Below, in pieces: positions 7,903 to 24,639 of a stretch of 25,884 nucleotides of DNA; positions within the stretch are counted from its first letter, which is position 1; each line of letters starts with the position of its first letter. The stretch is from a virus, in IMG/VR virus record IMGVR_UViG_3300025070_000202, positions 1 through 25,884 of that record. One strand, 5' to 3'. The notes under the pieces are model-generated. The model saw only the letters and a program-made list of their open reading frames with translations. It did no database searches and was not told where the DNA came from. The translations under genes were made by a program, and so were the position numbers.

Positions 7903-10900
7903 CTATCGCCCTGTACCTGCTGTATTATAATTTAACCCCTTACCTGACTGACGTTTAGTTTTCTCAGCAAGTCTTTTTGGATCATTAGCAACAACCGTTT
8001 GATTCTTAATATGAATAGTTGTTGAATTGTCATTTACTGGGGTACTCGGCATATATGTAGTAGCCATCGCACTCGGTGGCCTAACCATCGGTTGAGCAGT
8101 TGCCCCTGTACCAATGTATGGCCTTAAATATGTACCGCCCCCACCTAAAGGACTTGCGGTAACTAGATTAGTACCTGTCATCGAAGCTGTTGGCTGTGTT
8201 GTCAAAGGTGTTGTTAAGTCTAAAGGCTTAGGCTTGACTTTAGAGAAAGCTGAGTACAACAGATATATTGCATACAAAGCTGTATATAAAGGCCACCATG
8301 CGGCAGCCATAACAATAGCTGACTTTATGTTAGCAAGAGTTAAAAGCCTAACCCCTTGTATAATCATTTGAAAGCCATTTACGAGTTGAGGAACAAAAGC
8401 GAGTATTGTACCAAACAGCATTGTCATATTACCTGTAGAAGAAGCCAATTCGTTCCCTGTGATCTCTCCAAACATAGTCATCATTCCACCTAATGACGCT
8501 ATAGCCATACCAACGCCTTGAAACCCATTTATCATTTGCATTTGAGTCTTGCCATGTTTTTTTGCGGCTACTCCTGCTTGGACTAATGTCTGCTGATACT
8601 TTTGGGTCTGACCAGTTAGTTCGTAGTATTTAAGTTTTAATCTATCTAAATAAGAAATGTTTACTTTATTTACATTGATAGTTTGACTTGTAATTTTTTG
8701 CATAGCTTGCTGACTTTTAACGAAGCTATGAACCCCTTGACCTAAACTTATAAACTTGTTTTTCAGACCCATTAAGGTCATTGCAAACATTTTCCAAGCA
8801 CCCGACAGTAAGAAGCCAGAGATAATCACACCTAGAACAGTGCCAATACCCTTTAAGACCGAAGTCATAAAAGAACCCTCATCTGATACAAAGCCAAATA
8901 AGGTAGCTATTGCTCTCACAGGCATAAGTAGTAAGTCTAAAGTATAGTATAAAGTATCAAAAACCGCTCCCAAAGTAAGCATTATTGGCTGAATGGCACT
9001 CTCACCAATAACAGCGATCCCCTTAGCTAGATTCTTAATATGATCTGTTATTCTAGCAATCGTACTAACGGTTTCCTTACTGCCCTCAAGCTCCATCTTT
9101 ACTAAAGATCTACGACCCTCTGCACCTAGTTCCTTATTTATTCTCTGCAAGTGATCAAAGAAGTCTCTTGATTGCCTTTTCTTTAGATAGAACTGAGATT
9201 GGCTTAGTTTTGCTGTTCCCATTTCATGGGCTAAAATCTCTTGATCAATCTTACGTTTTTGATCTCTAAATCTGTAGAAGTCATTAGTCAATTCCTCTAA
9301 AGACTTTTTACCACTAAGAGAAGAAAAAGCTAACTGAATAATCCCACCTGTAGCCCTAGCTACATCACCAATCTTCTCTAAGACTATCTTGAAGCCCTCT
9401 CCAATACCCTCTGCTCCAGAGAAGTATCTCATTAAGGCCACCACAGAGATACCCAAGATACCTAATGCACCAATCATCTGCATCATGACTGTTAAGGTAG
9501 GTACTAAGAACATACTACCAAAGGCTCTCATTGTAGCACCGAACCCTGTAGCAGCGCCTTTTGTATTTTTTAAAGAATGTGTCAAAGCAATACTAAAGGT
9601 GGCCATCGCTGTTAAGGTAAACCCTAAAGTTGTGCCTACACCTGTTAAGAACTGCATCATACGGCCAATAAAAGAGATAGACGAAGCTAAGCTATCATTG
9701 TTCTTCATTAGCTTATTTGTAGCAGTCAAAGTCTCTTTATATGTATCTAAGATCGCATTAGCGTATATGTCATGCTGGAAGATTGTATTAGATAAAGCAT
9801 CCTCTGCTGAGTTCACTAACTCTATTCGCTTCTCTAAGGTCTTAAGAGCTTCTGCTTGTGACTTGGCAAGCTCTCCATTGTTTTTAGATATGGTTGCCAC
9901 TAACTCTTGGAAAACTTTCCCCGCATCGCCAACTTTCTTACCAGATTGCTCAGCTAATTTCACTATAGCCTGGAGCATAAATTGAGCAGACTGAGTACCA
10001 AAAGCTTGTTTAGCAATCGCATCAGCTTCTGCCCCTTGTGCTTCTTTTAAGACAGCGTAACGACTAACCAAAGTCTCCATAAGTTGAGATATACTTTTCT
10101 GCTCAAACTTACCTGTTTTCTTATCAAAGTTCATTAGCTGGTTCTTAACAAAAGCATCCCTAGCTACACTTACATTACTAAACTGTTGCCCTAATCTTTT
10201 TTGAATCTGAGACTTACTCATAGATTGGACACCAAAGAATTGCAGTAAAGACTCACGCTTCATACTAAAGCGACCCTCTACTTTCATGCCCTTTAGTTGT
10301 CTTAGTTGCCCTTTGCTAACAACCCCGACTAACCCAAGTATAGACCTTGAGAATTGATCAACCTGTTGGGCAGACTCCGCTCCTCCCAACCCCATTCCTC
10401 TTGTAGCAGCAGCTAAACCCATTAACTCAGCTTCCCGACTAACACCTGTAGTCTCTGCGAATCTTGAATAACTTGCCCTTAGACTACCAAGTACTTGCTG
10501 TAAGTCTCTAAAGCCAATCTTGGTTTTCTGAGAGGTCTTCAATAACATATTTAAGTTGTCATCTACTTCCTCTACAGAACCACCCAAAGTACCAAGAGTC
10601 AAAGTAGCTATATCCACCGCTTGTCCTAAATCAAGCTGTCCACCCGAAGCTGTAGCTAACTGCAAAGTTCCATTTAACATCTTCATGGCCTCTGCACCAG
10701 TACGGCCACTTTGTACTAAAGCAGTAAAAGCATTAGCTACTTGCTTTTTTGTAAACTCAGTCGTCATGGCAAGGTCATCTATACGATTCTTGAACATATC
10801 GAACTCTTGAAACCTTGCCCTAAACATAGGGTCAGTTGCGCTTTCACCTGCTAACCCCATTGTTACCCTAAGTTGAGTCATTGCAGTCTCAGACTCGATG

Positions 10901-11172
10901 AACCTCTTAGTCATATTATCGAATAAGTTGTTTATCCGAACATTGGTATTTAGTAACCAAGTACTTAACTGTACAAGACCTGCCTGTATATTCGCTAAAC
11001 CCTGTTGACTTGTTTTAGTCTGCTTTTGGTGCTTTGTTTGGCTTTGAGAAGATCTATTAAAAGACTTTGTGAGATTCTCAATTGCAGTAGTTACGCCCCT
11101 AATCTGATTAGAGGCTTGTCTAGTACCTGCTATTTGGAGATTAATTGCTGCGGTTAAGTTTTGTATTGACAT
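7903..11172 (-). CDS. Tail tape measure protein
   Basis: At 1089 aa this is the longest gene in the window, directly after the tail assembly chaperone, the usual tape measure position. Residues about 135-410 match the TP901-type tape measure core (VANAFTALVQSGRTGAEAMK, VDIATLTLGTLGG, FRDLQQVLGSLRASYSRFAE, LMGLAAATRGMGLGGAE). Residues 425-485 are a coiled-coil-like region. Strong hydrophobic segments lie at about 508-530 and 554-582, with further ones in the last 330 residues, including a Trp/Tyr-rich helix (AAAWWPLYTALYAIYLLYSA). In this family the protein fills the tube lumen, sets tail length and can help DNA cross the inner membrane. At about 1.5 A per residue the tail would be about 160 nm, an inference. 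The ATG has AGGAGA upstream, next to the frameshift product's TAG. Confidence 0.95.
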   Translation of the reverse strand: MSIQNLTAAINLQIAGTRQASNQIRGVTTAIENLTKSFNRSSQSQTKHQKQTKTSQQGLANIQAGLVQLSTWLLNTNVRINNLFDNMTKRFIESETAMTQLRVTMGLAGESATDPMFRARFQEFDMFKNRIDDLAMTTEFTKKQVANAFTALVQSGRTGAEAMKMLNGTLQLATASGGQLDLGQAVDIATLTLGTLGGSVEEVDDNLNMLLKTSQKTKIGFRDLQQVLGSLRASYSRFAETTGVSREAELMGLAAATRGMGLGGAESAQQVDQFSRSILGLVGVVSKGQLRQLKGMKVEGRFSMKRESLLQFFGVQSMSKSQIQKRLGQQFSNVSVARDAFVKNQLMNFDKKTGKFEQKSISQLMETLVSRYAVLKEAQGAEADAIAKQAFGTQSAQFMLQAIVKLAEQSGKKVGDAGKVFQELVATISKNNGELAKSQAEALKTLEKRIELVNSAEDALSNTIFQHDIYANAILDTYKETLTATNKLMKNNDSLASSISFIGRMMQFLTGVGTTLGFTLTAMATFSIALTHSLKNTKGAATGFGATMRAFGSMFLVPTLTVMMQMIGALGILGISVVALMRYFSGAEGIGEGFKIVLEKIGDVARATGGIIQLAFSSLSGKKSLEELTNDFYRFRDQKRKIDQEILAHEMGTAKLSQSQFYLKKRQSRDFFDHLQRINKELGAEGRRSLVKMELEGSKETVSTIARITDHIKNLAKGIAVIGESAIQPIMLTLGAVFDTLYYTLDLLLMPVRAIATLFGFVSDEGSFMTSVLKGIGTVLGVIISGFLLSGAWKMFAMTLMGLKNKFISLGQGVHSFVKSQQAMQKITSQTINVNKVNISYLDRLKLKYYELTGQTQKYQQTLVQAGVAAKKHGKTQMQMINGFQGVGMAIASLGGMMTMFGEITGNELASSTGNMTMLFGTILAFVPQLVNGFQMIIQGVRLLTLANIKSAIVMAAAWWPLYTALYAIYLLYSAFSKVKPKPLDLTTPLTTQPTASMTGTNLVTASPLGGGGTYLRPYIGTGATAQPMVRPPSAMATTYMPSTPVNDNSTTIHIKNQTVVANDPKRLAEKTKRQSGKGLNYNTAGTGR

Positions 11173-11174
11173 AA

Positions 11175-12148
11175 CTATCTCCTGGCTCGGCTGGCTTCTC
11201 GCTCTTTGTCTATTATTTCTTCATATAACTCTAAGTATAAAGCTCTCTGTCTCGTTGGTAAACTAAGTATATCACATCTAGTCCAATGCCACCGCTCTGC
11301 AATAGCAACTACTGTACGAATTAACGAAGTTTGCGTTTTCTCCGCCCATTTGTCCCAACGCTTGATCGCTTCTGGGTCTTTCGTTGACCCAAATTGGAAA
11401 AACCCACCGTATTCACCTCTGAGTCAAACTCATGACCGCAAGCATCACAGCACATCTCAATCTTAGTCTCTACACCAACCATATTCTCTACTATGGCATC
11501 AGCTAAAGCACCTCGATCTCTTACGCTTAATCTTCTTACCTCATCGCTGCTAGGAATACTATCTCTGCCATCTACGCTTCTTAAGCCTATAGCAATAAGA
11601 TTTGTTCCCATCTCATTCTCAGGTAGCGATGCTAAACGTTCCTGAGCAACCCCCTTTGGGAATCCCCAACGAACCCTTTTGTTATACTGTTGAGTATCTT
11701 GGTTATAAAAACCTCTTGGTAAATCAACAGTAATCTCTACTGGCTCATTCTCATCCCACTCATATACATCTAACTCTTTTAGGTTGACCAGTTTGTCTAC
11801 CTCAGAATCGCATGATGGGCAGTTCACATTCATAAGCAACTCAGAGTCGCCACTAATAGTCCTAATGCACATAATAAGAAAGTCTCTGTCCGCTACATAC
11901 ATGTTACGAACATACTTCTCATCAATTAAACCCAAAGGGTCACGCTTCTGCTCAAGTACTCCCTCAATAGATTGAATACAGCGTCTAAGAAGAAGAGTGA
12001 TTGCCTTTGCGCCATTATTGCGAACTTTGCGAGATGAGAGGTTTTCTTCATCAATACCAGTCATCTCATCAATGACTATATTGCGGTATCGAATACCATC
12101 AATCTCAAGTCCAATAGGTAGAGCTACTCTATCGTTATCAGTAATCAT
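11175..12148 (-). CDS. Tail assembly chaperone, made as a 275-aa protein and a -1 frameshift 324-aa fusion
   Basis: The zero frame runs from the ATG at 12148 to a TAA at 11321 (275 aa). Two CxxC pairs (C110/C113 and C234/C237, plus C233) suggest a zinc ribbon; VADRDFLIMCIRTISG just before the first pair recalls the T4 gp26-type family, a tentative match. At codons 249-250 the RNA reads G GGT TTT, a canonical -1 slippery heptamer. Beyond it the zero frame gives a short basic tail, while the -1 frame is open for 74 codons (FQFGSTKDPEAIKRWDKWAE ... AIAERWHWTRCDILSLPTRQ ...) to a TAG at 11175-11177, two bases before the tape measure ATG. This matches the lambda G/GT arrangement in which both products help fold the tape measure and recruit tube subunits. 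The fusion is predicted, not shown. Confidence 0.85.
11399..11405 (-). promoter_or_regulatory. Programmed -1 ribosomal frameshift site (GGGTTTT)
   Basis: The coding strand reads G GGT TTT in the frame of the chaperone gene, fitting X XXY YYZ with X=G, Y=T, Z=T. Re-pairing one base back lets the ribosome continue at TTC (11399-11397) into the 74-codon -1 extension. I did not find a clear downstream pseudoknot by eye, nor an obvious upstream Shine-Dalgarno-like stimulator. Confidence 0.85.
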
Positions 12149-12216: not shown

Positions 12217-12732
12217 TTAAGCGAGTAGGTTTGTCTCTTGAATGCCATGATGTTGAAGCACTAGAGTGCTGATTACAACGTCATTTGAGGTAGCGTCAAA
12301 GTCACCAATGGTGTACTCGCTAGGCCATGCATCTTTAAGGATGTATGACTTAACCTGTTGAGCTTGTTTATTGAACAAAGTGATCTTAATGTCACGCCTA
12401 TAAGACTGTGCGCCAATGTCAGCAAGGCCACTAGAGGTAACTCCATCGCCACCACCGCTAACAACGTCACAAACATCTTTCATCCAAGTGTTAAAAGCAT
12501 CATCGCTAGAGATACCACGCTCTAAGGTCACAGAGTCATAAGACATCATACCTGCTAACTTCTCCATGCGATCCGCCATGTTACCCTCACGATACTCAAC
12601 TACCTCTACAGAGGATTGCATACCTGTGACTTTTTGGAATGAGGCTCTAGCAGCGAAGTAGTTTTCACCTTGTCCAATGATCTCTACAGAGAACTTAAAC
12701 CCTCTATATACGTCTTTTGTTAAACTTGCCAT
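12217..12732 (-). CDS. Tail tube protein
   Basis: A 171-aa protein of the T4 gp19-like tube family, which forms the hexameric rings around the tape measure and DNA path. The typical order is present: FKFSVEIIGQG at residues 12-22, FQKVTGMQSSVEVVEYREGN at about 32-51, MEKLAGMMSYDSVTLERG at about 56-73, then a loop and the C-terminal strands IKITLFNKQAQ and YILKDAWPSEYTIGDFDA. It lies between the sheath and chaperone genes, and its ATG has GGAG eight bases upstream. Confidence 0.92.
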   Translation of the reverse strand: MASLTKDVYRGFKFSVEIIGQGENYFAARASFQKVTGMQSSVEVVEYREGNMADRMEKLAGMMSYDSVTLERGISSDDAFNTWMKDVCDVVSGGGDGVTSSGLADIGAQSYRRDIKITLFNKQAQQVKSYILKDAWPSEYTIGDFDATSNDVVISTLVLQHHGIQETNLLA

Positions 12733-12743
12733 TATCTATCTCC

Positions 12744-14570
12744 TTAGCCTGCTTGTACTTGGCTGAACTTGAAAACAATGAACTCAGCAGGGCGAAGTAG
12801 GGCTACACCAATCTCGCCAATTAGGATTCCTTGTTTGATATAATCTGCGGTATTGTTCGATGAATCAATCTTTACGAAGAAAGCTTCCTGGATAGAGTTA
12901 CCTGCAAGCTCTCCAGCTTCAAAACGCTTAGTTAAGAATGATTCAATCTGTGAGGTAAGGCTTGCCCAAAGAACAGGACCATTGTTACGGAACAAGCTAT
13001 CTTCGCCAATGCTCTTAACTCGCTTCTCGATGAAGTTCATCATTCTGCGAACATTGATGTAACGGAAGTCTAAGGTACTGCTAAGAGTACGAGCGCCTAG
13101 TACATTTACTGACACACCGCCTTGCGCACGATCTACTACTCGCAAGCAGTTAACACCCATAACATTAAGTGGACCATGCTGTGCTTCGCTAACTTCTACC
13201 TCTAATTTGCGAATGCCCTCTAAGCGACCAAAGTCACCAAAGCCAGCAGGAGCTGAGCTTACACCACCAGTAGGCGCACCAATAGCATCTACTCGGCTGT
13301 AAAGACCTGCAATCGCACCACTTGGTGGGATAGTAATAGACCCTGCTCCCTTTTTAACAGTAATATGTGGATAGTAAAGTGCGCCCCAGTATGAATCTAA
13401 ACCAAGATCTTCCTTTACATATTTCCCAATAGAACCTGTGCCTGTAGCATCTGCTGTTTTACCACTTGGTGCATCTAAGATCGCAAACATATCCATGCGA
13501 CCCTCAACGTACTTAAGCATTTTAATGTGGGTAATGTTAGAGCTAGCTGCTGGGAAGATGCCTGTAGCACTGATTGATGTAGGAACACAAAGTAGGTTCA
13601 CAGCATCTTTAGCATCAAGTGTATCAAGCGCATTTTGTAAATCAGTAGCAATTGCAAAACCAGTTAGCTCATTTTCACCATTAGTATCAAGACCAAGTTC
13701 GTTCCCTATTACGCTTGAAGCAATCTCTTTTTCGACCGATAAAAGAGAAGAACCTACTTTTAGGTCTTGAACCTTAACATACTCAGAACCGACTTGTTCA
13801 TCATTAATAACAGTCTCAAAGTAGAGGTCGCTGTCAGGGTCTACTGATAAACGACTATAAGATTCTACTTCAACGTCATCATATAAAACAGAAAGATCAT
13901 AAGCTATGACCTTTACGTCTGCACCGCTACCAACTGCGACAGTGCTAGCAGAAGTAAAAGTAAGAGTGCGAATAATAGCACCACTACTATCAAGACCACT
14001 CTCTATTTTAGACACCTTAAGGTATGTGTCATTAGTATTATCATCTATTTTTACAATGTCACCAACATTGATACCATTCGCACTTGATACCTTTATATCA
14101 AGGTCACCTGCAGTTAAAGCGTCTGAGCTTGTTGTTTCCACCCCAACCTCACTCAACTTTACTTCAATTTTTCTACCTTTTGCTCCATGACTATCAGAGC
14201 CACGATAGCCAGCAAAAAACTTAAGGAGTCCTGTAGGTGTGCCATGATTATTATTAATAGTAGTGTTTGCTGGTGTAGCGTTAGGGCTTGCACCGCCAAC
14301 TTGAGAGCTACTTACCGCACGAACGATATAGCAGCCTGCACCACCATTCTCAAAGAATGATCGAACACTGTAAAAGATAGATTCGCCATCTACAGCTTTA
14401 TCGCCAAAGATACGCTGAAAAGCTGCAAAACTATCAATGAAAATTGCCTTATCACTTGGGCCACGTAAAGTTGCACCAACAAACGAAGCAATACTAGTAG
14501 AAACACCTTGTGGTGCTAGTTCGGGAGTTAAAATCTCCTCGATATAAACGTCTGGCCTAGTGTAAGCCAT
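12744..14570 (-). CDS. Tail sheath protein
   Basis: A 608-aa contractile tail sheath protein. The N-terminus has YTRPDVYIEEI, then TSIASFVGATLRGPSDKAIF and a FFENGGAGCYIVRAV segment, all typical of the conserved sheath core. Residues about 105-260 are an extra Asp/Ser/Val-rich region, likely the variable outer domain. The C-terminal core is clear from about residue 450: VNCLRVVDRAQGGVSVNVLG, then YINVRRMMNFIEKRVKSIG, a LTKRFEAGELAG segment and the terminal strand with RPAEFIVFKFSQ. Sheath subunits stack on the tube and shorten to drive it into the cell. It follows the likely tail terminator gene by eight bases and has AGGTGA upstream of its ATG. Confidence 0.95.
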   Translation of the reverse strand: MAYTRPDVYIEEILTPELAPQGVSTSIASFVGATLRGPSDKAIFIDSFAAFQRIFGDKAVDGESIFYSVRSFFENGGAGCYIVRAVSSSQVGGASPNATPANTTINNNHGTPTGLLKFFAGYRGSDSHGAKGRKIEVKLSEVGVETTSSDALTAGDLDIKVSSANGINVGDIVKIDDNTNDTYLKVSKIESGLDSSGAIIRTLTFTSASTVAVGSGADVKVIAYDLSVLYDDVEVESYSRLSVDPDSDLYFETVINDEQVGSEYVKVQDLKVGSSLLSVEKEIASSVIGNELGLDTNGENELTGFAIATDLQNALDTLDAKDAVNLLCVPTSISATGIFPAASSNITHIKMLKYVEGRMDMFAILDAPSGKTADATGTGSIGKYVKEDLGLDSYWGALYYPHITVKKGAGSITIPPSGAIAGLYSRVDAIGAPTGGVSSAPAGFGDFGRLEGIRKLEVEVSEAQHGPLNVMGVNCLRVVDRAQGGVSVNVLGARTLSSTLDFRYINVRRMMNFIEKRVKSIGEDSLFRNNGPVLWASLTSQIESFLTKRFEAGELAGNSIQEAFFVKIDSSNNTADYIKQGILIGEIGVALLRPAEFIVFKFSQVQAG

Positions 14571-22212: not shown

Positions 22213-22434
22213 TCAATCCCACTTTCTGTGAACAATAGTCTCTCTGTCCTTGCGTATGCCTGTACGAGCTTTTGGTGCGCTCATTTTAATCTGTATTGAA
22301 GATTTTAGCCACTCTCCTACACACTTTGGAGTCTGATCAAGTAAATCACCTTTAGAGATTGCTTTTTTTACGAGTCGCTCACTTAGCCCACTCAACTCAC
22401 TTATTTGCTCTATTGTCAACAGATTACCATCCAT
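22213..22434 (-). CDS. Small helix-turn-helix protein, possible terminase small subunit or regulator
   Basis: I start this at the ATG at 22434 (73 aa), which has AAGGAG eight bases upstream; a longer frame from 22503 would overlap terminase by 80 bases without a better site. Residues 5-30 (LLTIEQISELSGLSERLVKK) form a MerR/AlpA/Nu1-type helix-turn-helix. The rest is basic and ends RKDRETIVHRKWD. Phage small terminases of the Nu1 type bind DNA through such a domain, but they normally precede the large subunit, while this gene follows it. It could also be a transcription regulator. It overlaps the terminase stop by 11 bases. Confidence 0.65.
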   Translation of the reverse strand: MDGNLLTIEQISELSGLSERLVKKAISKGDLLDQTPKCVGEWLKSSIQIKMSAPKARTGIRKDRETIVHRKWD

Positions 22435-24133
22435 CAAACTTTCTCCTTGATCGACCACCCCTAATTTGGGCTGAGTAACGTCTTCGGGTATCTCCAACTG
22501 CATTACCCATAAATGGGTTATCCGCAGTCTCAGCAGAGATCATCTTTCGGTTTACTAAATAACATAAAAGCATCAAAGAGTCGCTATAGTCATCGTGTCC
22601 ACCAGAACCTGTTTTCTTCTTACCACTGGTAGGAGCATGGACATCCATGTACTTCCCTCTCCAGTCTTTTTGGAGATCATACATCTCTCTCACAAACTTT
22701 TGCCAACGCTTGTACCCTCTGGAGTGATCACTGCCTGGGTAAGTAAGCCTTTGCGTCTTAATCTCTTGATACAGGATTGTATAGCCCTCATGCTTAGTCC
22801 TTTGACTAAATACAAAGGGCTTTACGTCAATACCATGATCATATAGGTCTGCTTTCAAGCGATCAAAAATTGGGTCACCTCGACCTGTCGCATCGACTAT
22901 AATTGAGCCTATCTTGTAATTCCCTAAGAACTGTAAGATCTGTGGGTACTGTGTCTCATGATCATCGCCTTGTATCTCTAACCAATTCACAATATGAGTA
23001 TGGTATCTATCCTCACCTGCAAACATAATCGGATTCTCCCACCATACCTTAGCCACTGTCACAACAGTTGAGTCATTGCTGCGCCCAATGTCTATCGAGG
23101 CCACCATATTCTCGGTCATGTTATCATTATAATAATGACTCTCATTCCTCTTGAAGTGAACGTACTTCCCTTTTTTCTTTACCCTAAGCTTGTCAGTCTT
23201 TTTAATAGCACAAGCATCTAAGATCTCTGGAGCAATAAAGTGACCTCTCTCCAACATCCAATGAAGCCTGTAGCTCATTCGGAACTCATCAGACTCATAC
23301 CCTAGACGCTCAATCTCTTTTTCTATATAAGCACCATATCTTGGGTTGTATCTCGCTGGGTGTTCATAATCATACTGAAAGTGGCTAGGTAGCTCATTCC
23401 TACCTAGTGATGCGGTCTTCTTTCTATTCCGCTCACAAGCATCAAAGAACTCATTCTTCTGTTGATTAGGTGTACCAATCTTAATCATAGTCGCATTCGT
23501 ACTTGCGCCCATTGGGTGTATACTCTTACGGATTTTGTAGTTAGATATATCCTGAGTTTCCTCACAAATTATTAAGTGATAGGTTTTACCCTCGATGTTA
23601 GCTTGTGGGCCTGCACTATTCGCATCGACAAAACTGCCATTAGGTAACCTAAGAACTTTACGACCACCCTGTAGGTCAATACCAAGCTCTGGGTCTTTTA
23701 GCACCTGCATCATTGTCTCAGATTGCATACGATTCGCCATGCGACTATGCATCACACCTGCTAACTCATAGTTGGGTGCAAAGATACCTACCCAAAGTCC
23801 TCGCTTAAACTTGTTAATCCTATCGTCTTCTCTAATACCTGGTGTCTTTGCCAAAGTCGGCAAGATTACACTTAAGCCCACAACCACTACTGATACCGAT
23901 TCGGTCTTACCACTCTGCCTCGCAAATAAGGCAGTGATCTCATCACCATCTTCCAAGATTACAGATTGACAAATACGTCTAGCGAACTCCTCTTGGTATG
24001 GGTAAAGCTGAATACCTGTTGCTTCTAAGCAGAACTGGAAACACTTCTCTGATATATCTAAAAGTTCTTCCCTAGATAGAATATGTTTGGGTGCTTTTGG
24101 TTTCCTACCCCTTGTCTTTTTCTGTATCTCCAA
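22424..24133 (-). CDS. Terminase large subunit (packaging ATPase and nuclease)
   Basis: A 569-aa terminase that cuts concatemeric DNA and pumps it into the procapsid. The ATPase has a Walker A-type ARQSGKT at 71-77, a Walker B HLIICEE at 186-192, and a coupling motif KIGTPNQ at 218-224. The C-terminal RNase H-like nuclease shows D348 (ASIDIGRSND), D414 (IIVDATGRGD) and the final acidic cluster GGHDDYSDS at 511-519. The only usable start is a TTG at 24133, five bases after the upstream stop; no ATG or GTG lies in frame between the previous stop codon and that TTG. The ribosome site is weak. All motifs are intact. The family is certain; the exact start is less so. Confidence 0.95.
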   Translation of the reverse strand: MEIQKKTRGRKPKAPKHILSREELLDISEKCFQFCLEATGIQLYPYQEEFARRICQSVILEDGDEITALFARQSGKTESVSVVVVGLSVILPTLAKTPGIREDDRINKFKRGLWVGIFAPNYELAGVMHSRMANRMQSETMMQVLKDPELGIDLQGGRKVLRLPNGSFVDANSAGPQANIEGKTYHLIICEETQDISNYKIRKSIHPMGASTNATMIKIGTPNQQKNEFFDACERNRKKTASLGRNELPSHFQYDYEHPARYNPRYGAYIEKEIERLGYESDEFRMSYRLHWMLERGHFIAPEILDACAIKKTDKLRVKKKGKYVHFKRNESHYYNDNMTENMVASIDIGRSNDSTVVTVAKVWWENPIMFAGEDRYHTHIVNWLEIQGDDHETQYPQILQFLGNYKIGSIIVDATGRGDPIFDRLKADLYDHGIDVKPFVFSQRTKHEGYTILYQEIKTQRLTYPGSDHSRGYKRWQKFVREMYDLQKDWRGKYMDVHAPTSGKKKTGSGGHDDYSDSLMLLCYLVNRKMISAETADNPFMGNAVGDTRRRYSAQIRGGRSRRKFDGW

Positions 24134-24138
24134 AACGA

Positions 24139-24630
24139 TTACTTCTTTCTTTTTCTCATCTGCTCTTTGGCTTTTTTGTATAACTCTTTATCTGCTGTCT
24201 TACTAGTCTTACCACCCTGCACAAAACTCAATACCCTAGCACGACTCCATGCTGCTTGACTTGCACCTGGTATGTGACCTGTTGCCCAAGCTCTTGCACC
24301 ACGCTCGTGAACAGTCCTAAGAATGGGTAATGGGTAACCAGTGGACTTTGCTACTGCCTTTAAGTAAGGCTCTTTACCCTTGCCAACCGTATTATCTTCG
24401 ATCTTCTTCTTAAGACCACTCTTTTTAGCTTGGGTTGTGTACTTAGATGGCTTAGTCTTTGCTTTCGCATCACCTTTCATAGGTGAATAACTAGGCTTAC
24501 CCTTAGATGAGGCTTTAGCCCTTTTCCTAATTTGAGCTTCACGCTCTTTCTTCTCTTTAGCCGAAAGGCCAGCAGTGTACTTCTTAGGAACTTTAGACTT
24601 AGATTTAGACTTACTTGGTTTTCTAGCCAT
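24139..24630 (-). CDS. DUF5824-like basic protein
   Basis: I start at the ATG at 24630 (163 aa); a GTG nine bases upstream would add three residues. The N-terminal 80 residues are Lys/Ser/Ala-rich and likely disordered. Residues about 85-150 form a small domain: YLKAVAKSTGYPLPILRTVH, ERGARAWATGHIPGASQAAW and ARVLSFVQGG, matching the DUF5824 pattern found in phage proteins. Its function is not established. It is the first gene of the leftward packaging and structural run, downstream of an AT-rich promoter region, and five bases before terminase. It might bind DNA or the terminase complex, an inference from charge and place. Confidence 0.75.
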   Translation of the reverse strand: MARKPSKSKSKSKVPKKYTAGLSAKEKKEREAQIRKRAKASSKGKPSYSPMKGDAKAKTKPSKYTTQAKKSGLKKKIEDNTVGKGKEPYLKAVAKSTGYPLPILRTVHERGARAWATGHIPGASQAAWSRARVLSFVQGGKTSKTADKELYKKAKEQMRKRKK

Positions 24631-24639
24631 AACATTCAC

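Follow-up and report, generated by a model that had tools for sequence, protein, structure and literature searches.

A predicted -1 ribosomal frameshift linking short and long forms of a T4-type tail assembly chaperone in an uncultured contractile-tailed phage

The window (the whole stretch of DNA analyzed here, a virus record of 25,884 bases in which 24 genes were examined) carries on its minus strand the structural genes of a contractile-tailed phage. They comprise the terminase, portal, major head protein, tail sheath, tail tube and chaperone genes, together with tape measure, CIS-tube-like, LysM-like, hub protein, gp5-like spike and gp25-like wedge genes. The large terminase subunit (22424-24133) is nearest to that of Streptomyces phage BRock and its relatives (35%); it also matches a Bacteroides phage and Bacillus phage G, though more weakly. 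A DUF5824 protein (24139-24639, E 7.8e-19) is encoded directly upstream of the terminase gene. The chaperone gene sits between the tail tube and tape measure genes, and the features of this region are as follows.

12744..14570, minus strand: tail sheath protein (contractile tail); phrog_23, E 5.1e-44
12217..12732, minus strand: tail tube protein, T4 gp19-like; PF06841, E 9.7e-34
11321..12148, minus strand: zero-frame ORF, predicted short form of the tail assembly chaperone (TAC-N), 275 aa; PF12322 and phrog_150 matches
11415..11419, minus strand: GAGGT, Shine-Dalgarno-like candidate upstream stimulator, 9 nt 5' of the heptamer
11399..11405, minus strand: predicted slippery heptamer G GGT TTT, in frame; sequence and same-place heptamers in relatives with the -1 layout
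11371..11393, minus strand: candidate stimulatory hairpin UUUGGGUC-AACGAAA-GACCCAGA, 8 pairs, 7-nt loop; RNA folding
11321..11398, minus strand: dual-coded overlap of the zero-frame 25-residue basic tail and the first third of the -1 extension
11175..11398, minus strand: -1 frame extension (TAC-C), 74 codons and a stop at 11177-11175; sequence and wobble positions in the -1 frame
7903..11172, minus strand: tape measure protein, 1089 aa; phrog_4704 tape measure, E 4.6e-17; PhageMin_Tail

In the zero frame, the first G of the heptamer closes codon 248, and the next two codons, 249 and 250, are GGT and TTT. After this site, the zero frame encodes a 25-residue basic C-terminal tail, SNLGQRKTQKRSSVGTNGRRKRKLR. 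The first codon of the -1 extension reuses base 11399, so that the fusion of the zero frame with the 74-aa extension amounts to 324 aa. The extension ends just before the tape measure gene: two bases separate its stop from the ATG starting at 11172. An earlier note on this DNA had reported an in-frame G GGT TTT at 11399-11405, a -1 frame open for 74 codons with its stop two bases before the tape-measure ATG, a short basic tail closing the zero frame, and a fusion of 324 aa. The heptamer was recovered base-exact on the minus strand, and the coordinates agreed with the remaining points.

An in-frame GGGTTTT is expected from composition about 0.018 times per such gene, and the probability of a 74-codon open frame is about 0.005 under a first-order Markov model of the region. 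Among the other 23 of the 24 window genes, none possessed an in-frame X XXY YYZ whose -1 frame passes the gene end by more than 30 nt. The combination of the heptamer and the open -1 frame is far beyond chance. A chance origin is untenable because the arrangement is conserved in 19 relatives.

The comparison set consisted of the window and 19 distinct relatives with the -1 layout. In all 19, an in-frame X XXY YYZ (GGGTTTT, TTTTTTC or AAATTTT) lies at the same place and is followed by a homologous -1 extension. The eight near contigs (L003-L010, 53-87% identity) carry GGGTTTT in the same frame, 24-25 codons ahead of the zero-frame stop, and their extensions of 73-77 codons end 2-6 bases before an ATG. 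A second in-frame heptamer of the window gene, T TTG GGT at 11393, from which the -1 frame is open too, is not kept in L008-L010 and was rejected. An alignment-based search added eight further distinct contigs of 33-54% identity, each with an in-frame heptamer and a homologous -1 extension; six of them have T TTT TTC, L028 has A AAT TTT, and L026, whose extension is truncated where the contig ends, has G GGT TTT. The huge uncultured phage LR756511 has GGGTTTT and the same plan. Its contig relatives L050 and L052 also share this plan, with AAATTTT overlapping TTTTTTC in the former and TTTTTTC in the latter. The alignment of the -1 extensions shows little conserved sequence. No host or prophage relative was confirmed among 84,980 prokaryote genomes. 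An alignment of relatives had been proposed in the earlier note as a check, and both an in-frame heptamer and the open -1 frame were kept throughout the 19 relatives.

Since the window derives from a metagenomic contig, the two frames might reflect a sequencing or assembly error, or a decaying gene. However, 19 other distinct sequences, the most distant with only 25-35% identity, have the same arrangement, and frame-specific selection is seen on both sides of the site (see below). This explanation is already refuted by the relatives, and its probability is practically negligible.

The T-runs of 5-6 found in most members raise another explanation, in which the long form arises by transcriptional slippage on the T-run and not by ribosomal slippage. 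However, the run is only 5 in the window and 4 in L028 (AAATTTTA), and the conserved item is the in-frame tandem X XXY YYZ, including its leading GGG or AAA. We consider transcriptional slippage very unlikely.

Variable sites were counted in six ungapped near sequences. Before the site, 93% of the zero-frame third positions are variable. After the zero-frame stop, 64% of the zero-frame second positions, which correspond to the -1 wobble positions, are variable, as compared with 18% and 25% for the other two positions. Thus, the most variable codon position moves from the zero-frame wobble to the -1 wobble across the site. Pairwise changes after the zero-frame stop were 226 synonymous and 136 nonsynonymous in the -1 frame, and 59/303 and 29/333 in the other frames; changes in this part are mainly synonymous in the -1 frame only. 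The wobble switch and the synonymous excess indicate, therefore, that protein is made from the -1 frame. In the earlier note, the extension was said to look like a real domain, and it is seen here to be under clear selection.

No ATG, GTG or TTG is present in the extension of the window or in those of six of the eight near relatives. Because a start codon is absent, translation of the extension must come from upstream. In addition, sequence conservation in the -1 reading starts at the heptamer, inside the upstream gene. Both observations argue against the extension being a separate gene with its own start and without fusion. Although the counterpart is annotated as its own CDS in GiJojo-type Streptomyces phages, there is only a slight chance that this is the case here.

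The 25-codon overlap shows partial constraint in both frames, and the basic tail (11321-11398, zero frame), which is GRRKRK-like, is also kept in the near relatives. It might be supposed from these observations that function resides in the tail and that the open -1 frame merely accompanies it as a by-product. However, the -1 frame is under protein-like selection for about 49 codons beyond the zero-frame end, the distant members L030 and L034 have only a short zero-frame remainder past the site, and the tail is predicted to be disordered. This supposition is highly improbable. Based on the comparison, a slip of ribosomes by one base backward, shortly before the gene ends, is very probable.

Two candidate stimulatory elements were found around the heptamer. 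The candidate hairpin starts 5 nt past it, and folds in the window, L003, L004 and L007; it is shortened or altered in L005 and L006, and absent in L008 and L009. Given the weak statistics, a stimulatory role of the hairpin can only be suggested. Of 11 aligned sequences, 9 retain GAGGT; this conservation is only suggestive, because GAGGT also encodes a conserved Glu-Val. In the aligned sequences, neither element appears as a family-wide feature. A search for a downstream RNA pseudoknot or stem common to the family gave no consensus structure (-1.8 kcal/mol), and the hairpin was confined to near relatives.

The zero-frame product matches Pfam PF12322 (T4_baseplate) with 37.5 bits (cut-off 24.5, E 2.6e-9), as well as phrog_150 baseplate hub. 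T4 gp26 (8.8e-64) and gp51 (3.9e-52), evidently encoded by a short and a long gene, both match PF12322 over the whole profile. By these profile matches, the window gene is a member of the T4-type tail assembly chaperone family PF12322 (gp26/gp51), and a chaperone role of its product is suggested by family and gene position. The locus of T4 genes 26 and 51 in our set is L015:5803-7229.

The earlier note had proposed a lambda-like tail chaperone frameshift. The kind of event, a frameshift in a tail chaperone, agrees with our results. The lambda-like assignment does not: neither the phage nor its chaperone is lambda-like, because the gene has a tail sheath and a T4 gp19-like tube as its neighbors, and its product belongs to PF12322. 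The lambda chaperone belongs to a different family, and its heptamer is GGGAAAG. In the profile libraries, the window chaperone gave no match to the lambda G/T families, and its only clear matches were PF12322 and phrog_150 baseplate hub.

The zero-frame product contains two CxxC zinc-ribbon-like motifs (C110/C113 and C234/C237), whose cysteines are invariant in 17 sequences. In its AlphaFold model (pLDDT 82.9), a compact domain is predicted up to residue 250, and residues 251-275, exactly the post-slip part, are disordered. A fold search of BFVD gave 55 matches with E <= 1e-3, including 'baseplate hub assembly protein, T4-like' and Aeromonas phage 25 gp26; the same chaperone domain gave no match in the PDB. 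The -1 extension is predicted to be all-helical, and its fold search against BFVD gave nothing significant. Among the non-significant extension matches, A0A343LED7 and A0A8S5UGS2 have accessions adjoining those of the chaperone-domain matches A0A343LED6 and A0A8S5UGS1, hinting that the extension there is perhaps annotated as a neighboring gene.

Beyond the family domain, T4 gp51 continues for about 48 residues, and there is a resemblance between its end and the -1 extension (IPAERGFVLKLIEKD against LPTRQRALYLELYEEI). In a comparison of the extension with the gp51 C-terminus, hhalign gave an E of 7.5e-4 at a probability of only 26% over 35 columns, and HMMER gave no significant match. Significant sequence homology between the two was thus not established by either program.

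The window gene resembles lambda gpG/gpGT in having a -1 frameshift, here a predicted one, near the end of the chaperone gene and upstream of the tape measure (PMC5009743). In lambda, the tape measure is bound by gpG in many copies and by gpGT in few, the tail tube protein being recruited through the T part (PMC5009743). However, the lambda tail is non-contractile, whereas the window phage is contractile-tailed. In the Pakpunavirus phage Adele and other Vandenendeviridae/Andersonviridae, contractile tails are combined with a conserved -1 frameshift at GTTTTT, proposed on the same type of evidence (PMC12846349). These phages belong to other families than the window phage.

Tail-chaperone frameshifting is a classical device of many phages. 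As for T4 itself, it was for long named as the exception to it (PMC5009743), and its gp51 was described as essential, with an unknown function (PMC3004832). According to a passage of PMC10885494 that cites Vladimirov et al. 2022 (doi 10.1016/j.virol.2021.11.003), some T4-like phages have one short and one long gene in place of the frameshift. Poly-T slippery signals in the TAC-N genes of T4-like phages are mentioned in a passage of PMC12846349, citing the same work. As far as these passages describe them, the TAC-N and TAC-NC of T4-like phages share with the window phage a contractile tail and short and long chaperone forms. T4 uses two genes (26 and 51) without a frameshift, whereas the window lineage, an uncultured group far from T4, has one gene for which we infer a -1 frameshift. 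The abstract of Vladimirov, Gautam and Davidson (2022) reportedly states that several T4-like groups keep frameshifting and that the T4 group uses two genes. On the strength of such passages, the -1 frameshift device is already described for T4-like phages, and the window gene is a well-supported further case.

Based on these results, we consider it highly likely that one gene directs the synthesis of a short and a long T4-type (PF12322) tail assembly chaperone through a -1 frameshift on G GGT TTT. Sequence comparison thus strongly supports the earlier proposal that the tail assembly chaperone gene preceding the tape measure undergoes programmed -1 frameshifting. We infer the slip, its frequency and the roles of the two chaperone forms as follows. 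Most ribosomes would stay in the zero frame and produce the 275-aa short form, composed of a folded domain of about 250 residues and a disordered basic tail. A minority would slip by -1 on G GGT TTT and pair anew with GGG and TTT. Their product would be the long form of 324 aa, in which the 74 C-terminal residues would make up a helical domain. If lambda G/GT is taken as a guide, the nascent tape measure may be coated by many short forms and few long ones, and the tail tube (or hub) subunit may be recruited by the C-terminal domain of the long form. Both forms would be absent from the finished virion.

For this uncultured group of contractile-tailed phages, the results amount to an annotation fix, as a selected 74-aa domain escapes gene callers. 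The gp26/gp51 family gains a deep and diverse set of relatives with a predicted -1 frameshift. Tests of how short and long chaperones act can profit from a relative that has one gene and a clean heptamer, although the principle is already established.

The nearest isolates of the window phage are the five Streptomyces phages GiJojo, pSt2308, LuckySocke, Alone3 and BRock, with the following loci.

L012:5836-6943, L013:5869-6943, L041:1339-2446, L042:1492-2575, L043:1522-2602: five Streptomyces phage loci

As in the window, these phages possess a PF12322 chaperone gene between the tail tube and tape measure genes, with a homologous extension downstream. However, their extension is in the +1 frame, whereas that of the window is in the -1 frame. 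In the annotations, it is given as a separate gene or left out. The +1 junction GAACTCTRATTA, in which CTC is followed by TGA or TAA, is invariant in the five phages; the GiJojo junction reads GAACTCTGATTA. Judging from this invariant junction, these Streptomyces phages probably use a +1 frameshift at the stop codon (CTC TGA/TAA).

One chaperone family might therefore reach its short and long forms by three routes, namely a -1 frameshift on diverse heptamers (the window lineage), a +1 frameshift at a stop codon (Streptomyces phages of the GiJojo/BRock group) and duplication into two genes (T4 gp26 and gp51); we give this reading about an even chance. Of these routes, the first and the third are known from T4-like phages, and the +1 route in the PF12322 family may be undescribed. 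If all three routes are true, the family records switches of recoding direction as well as an escape from recoding. The +1 junction of the Streptomyces phages is the least ordinary thing seen in this analysis.
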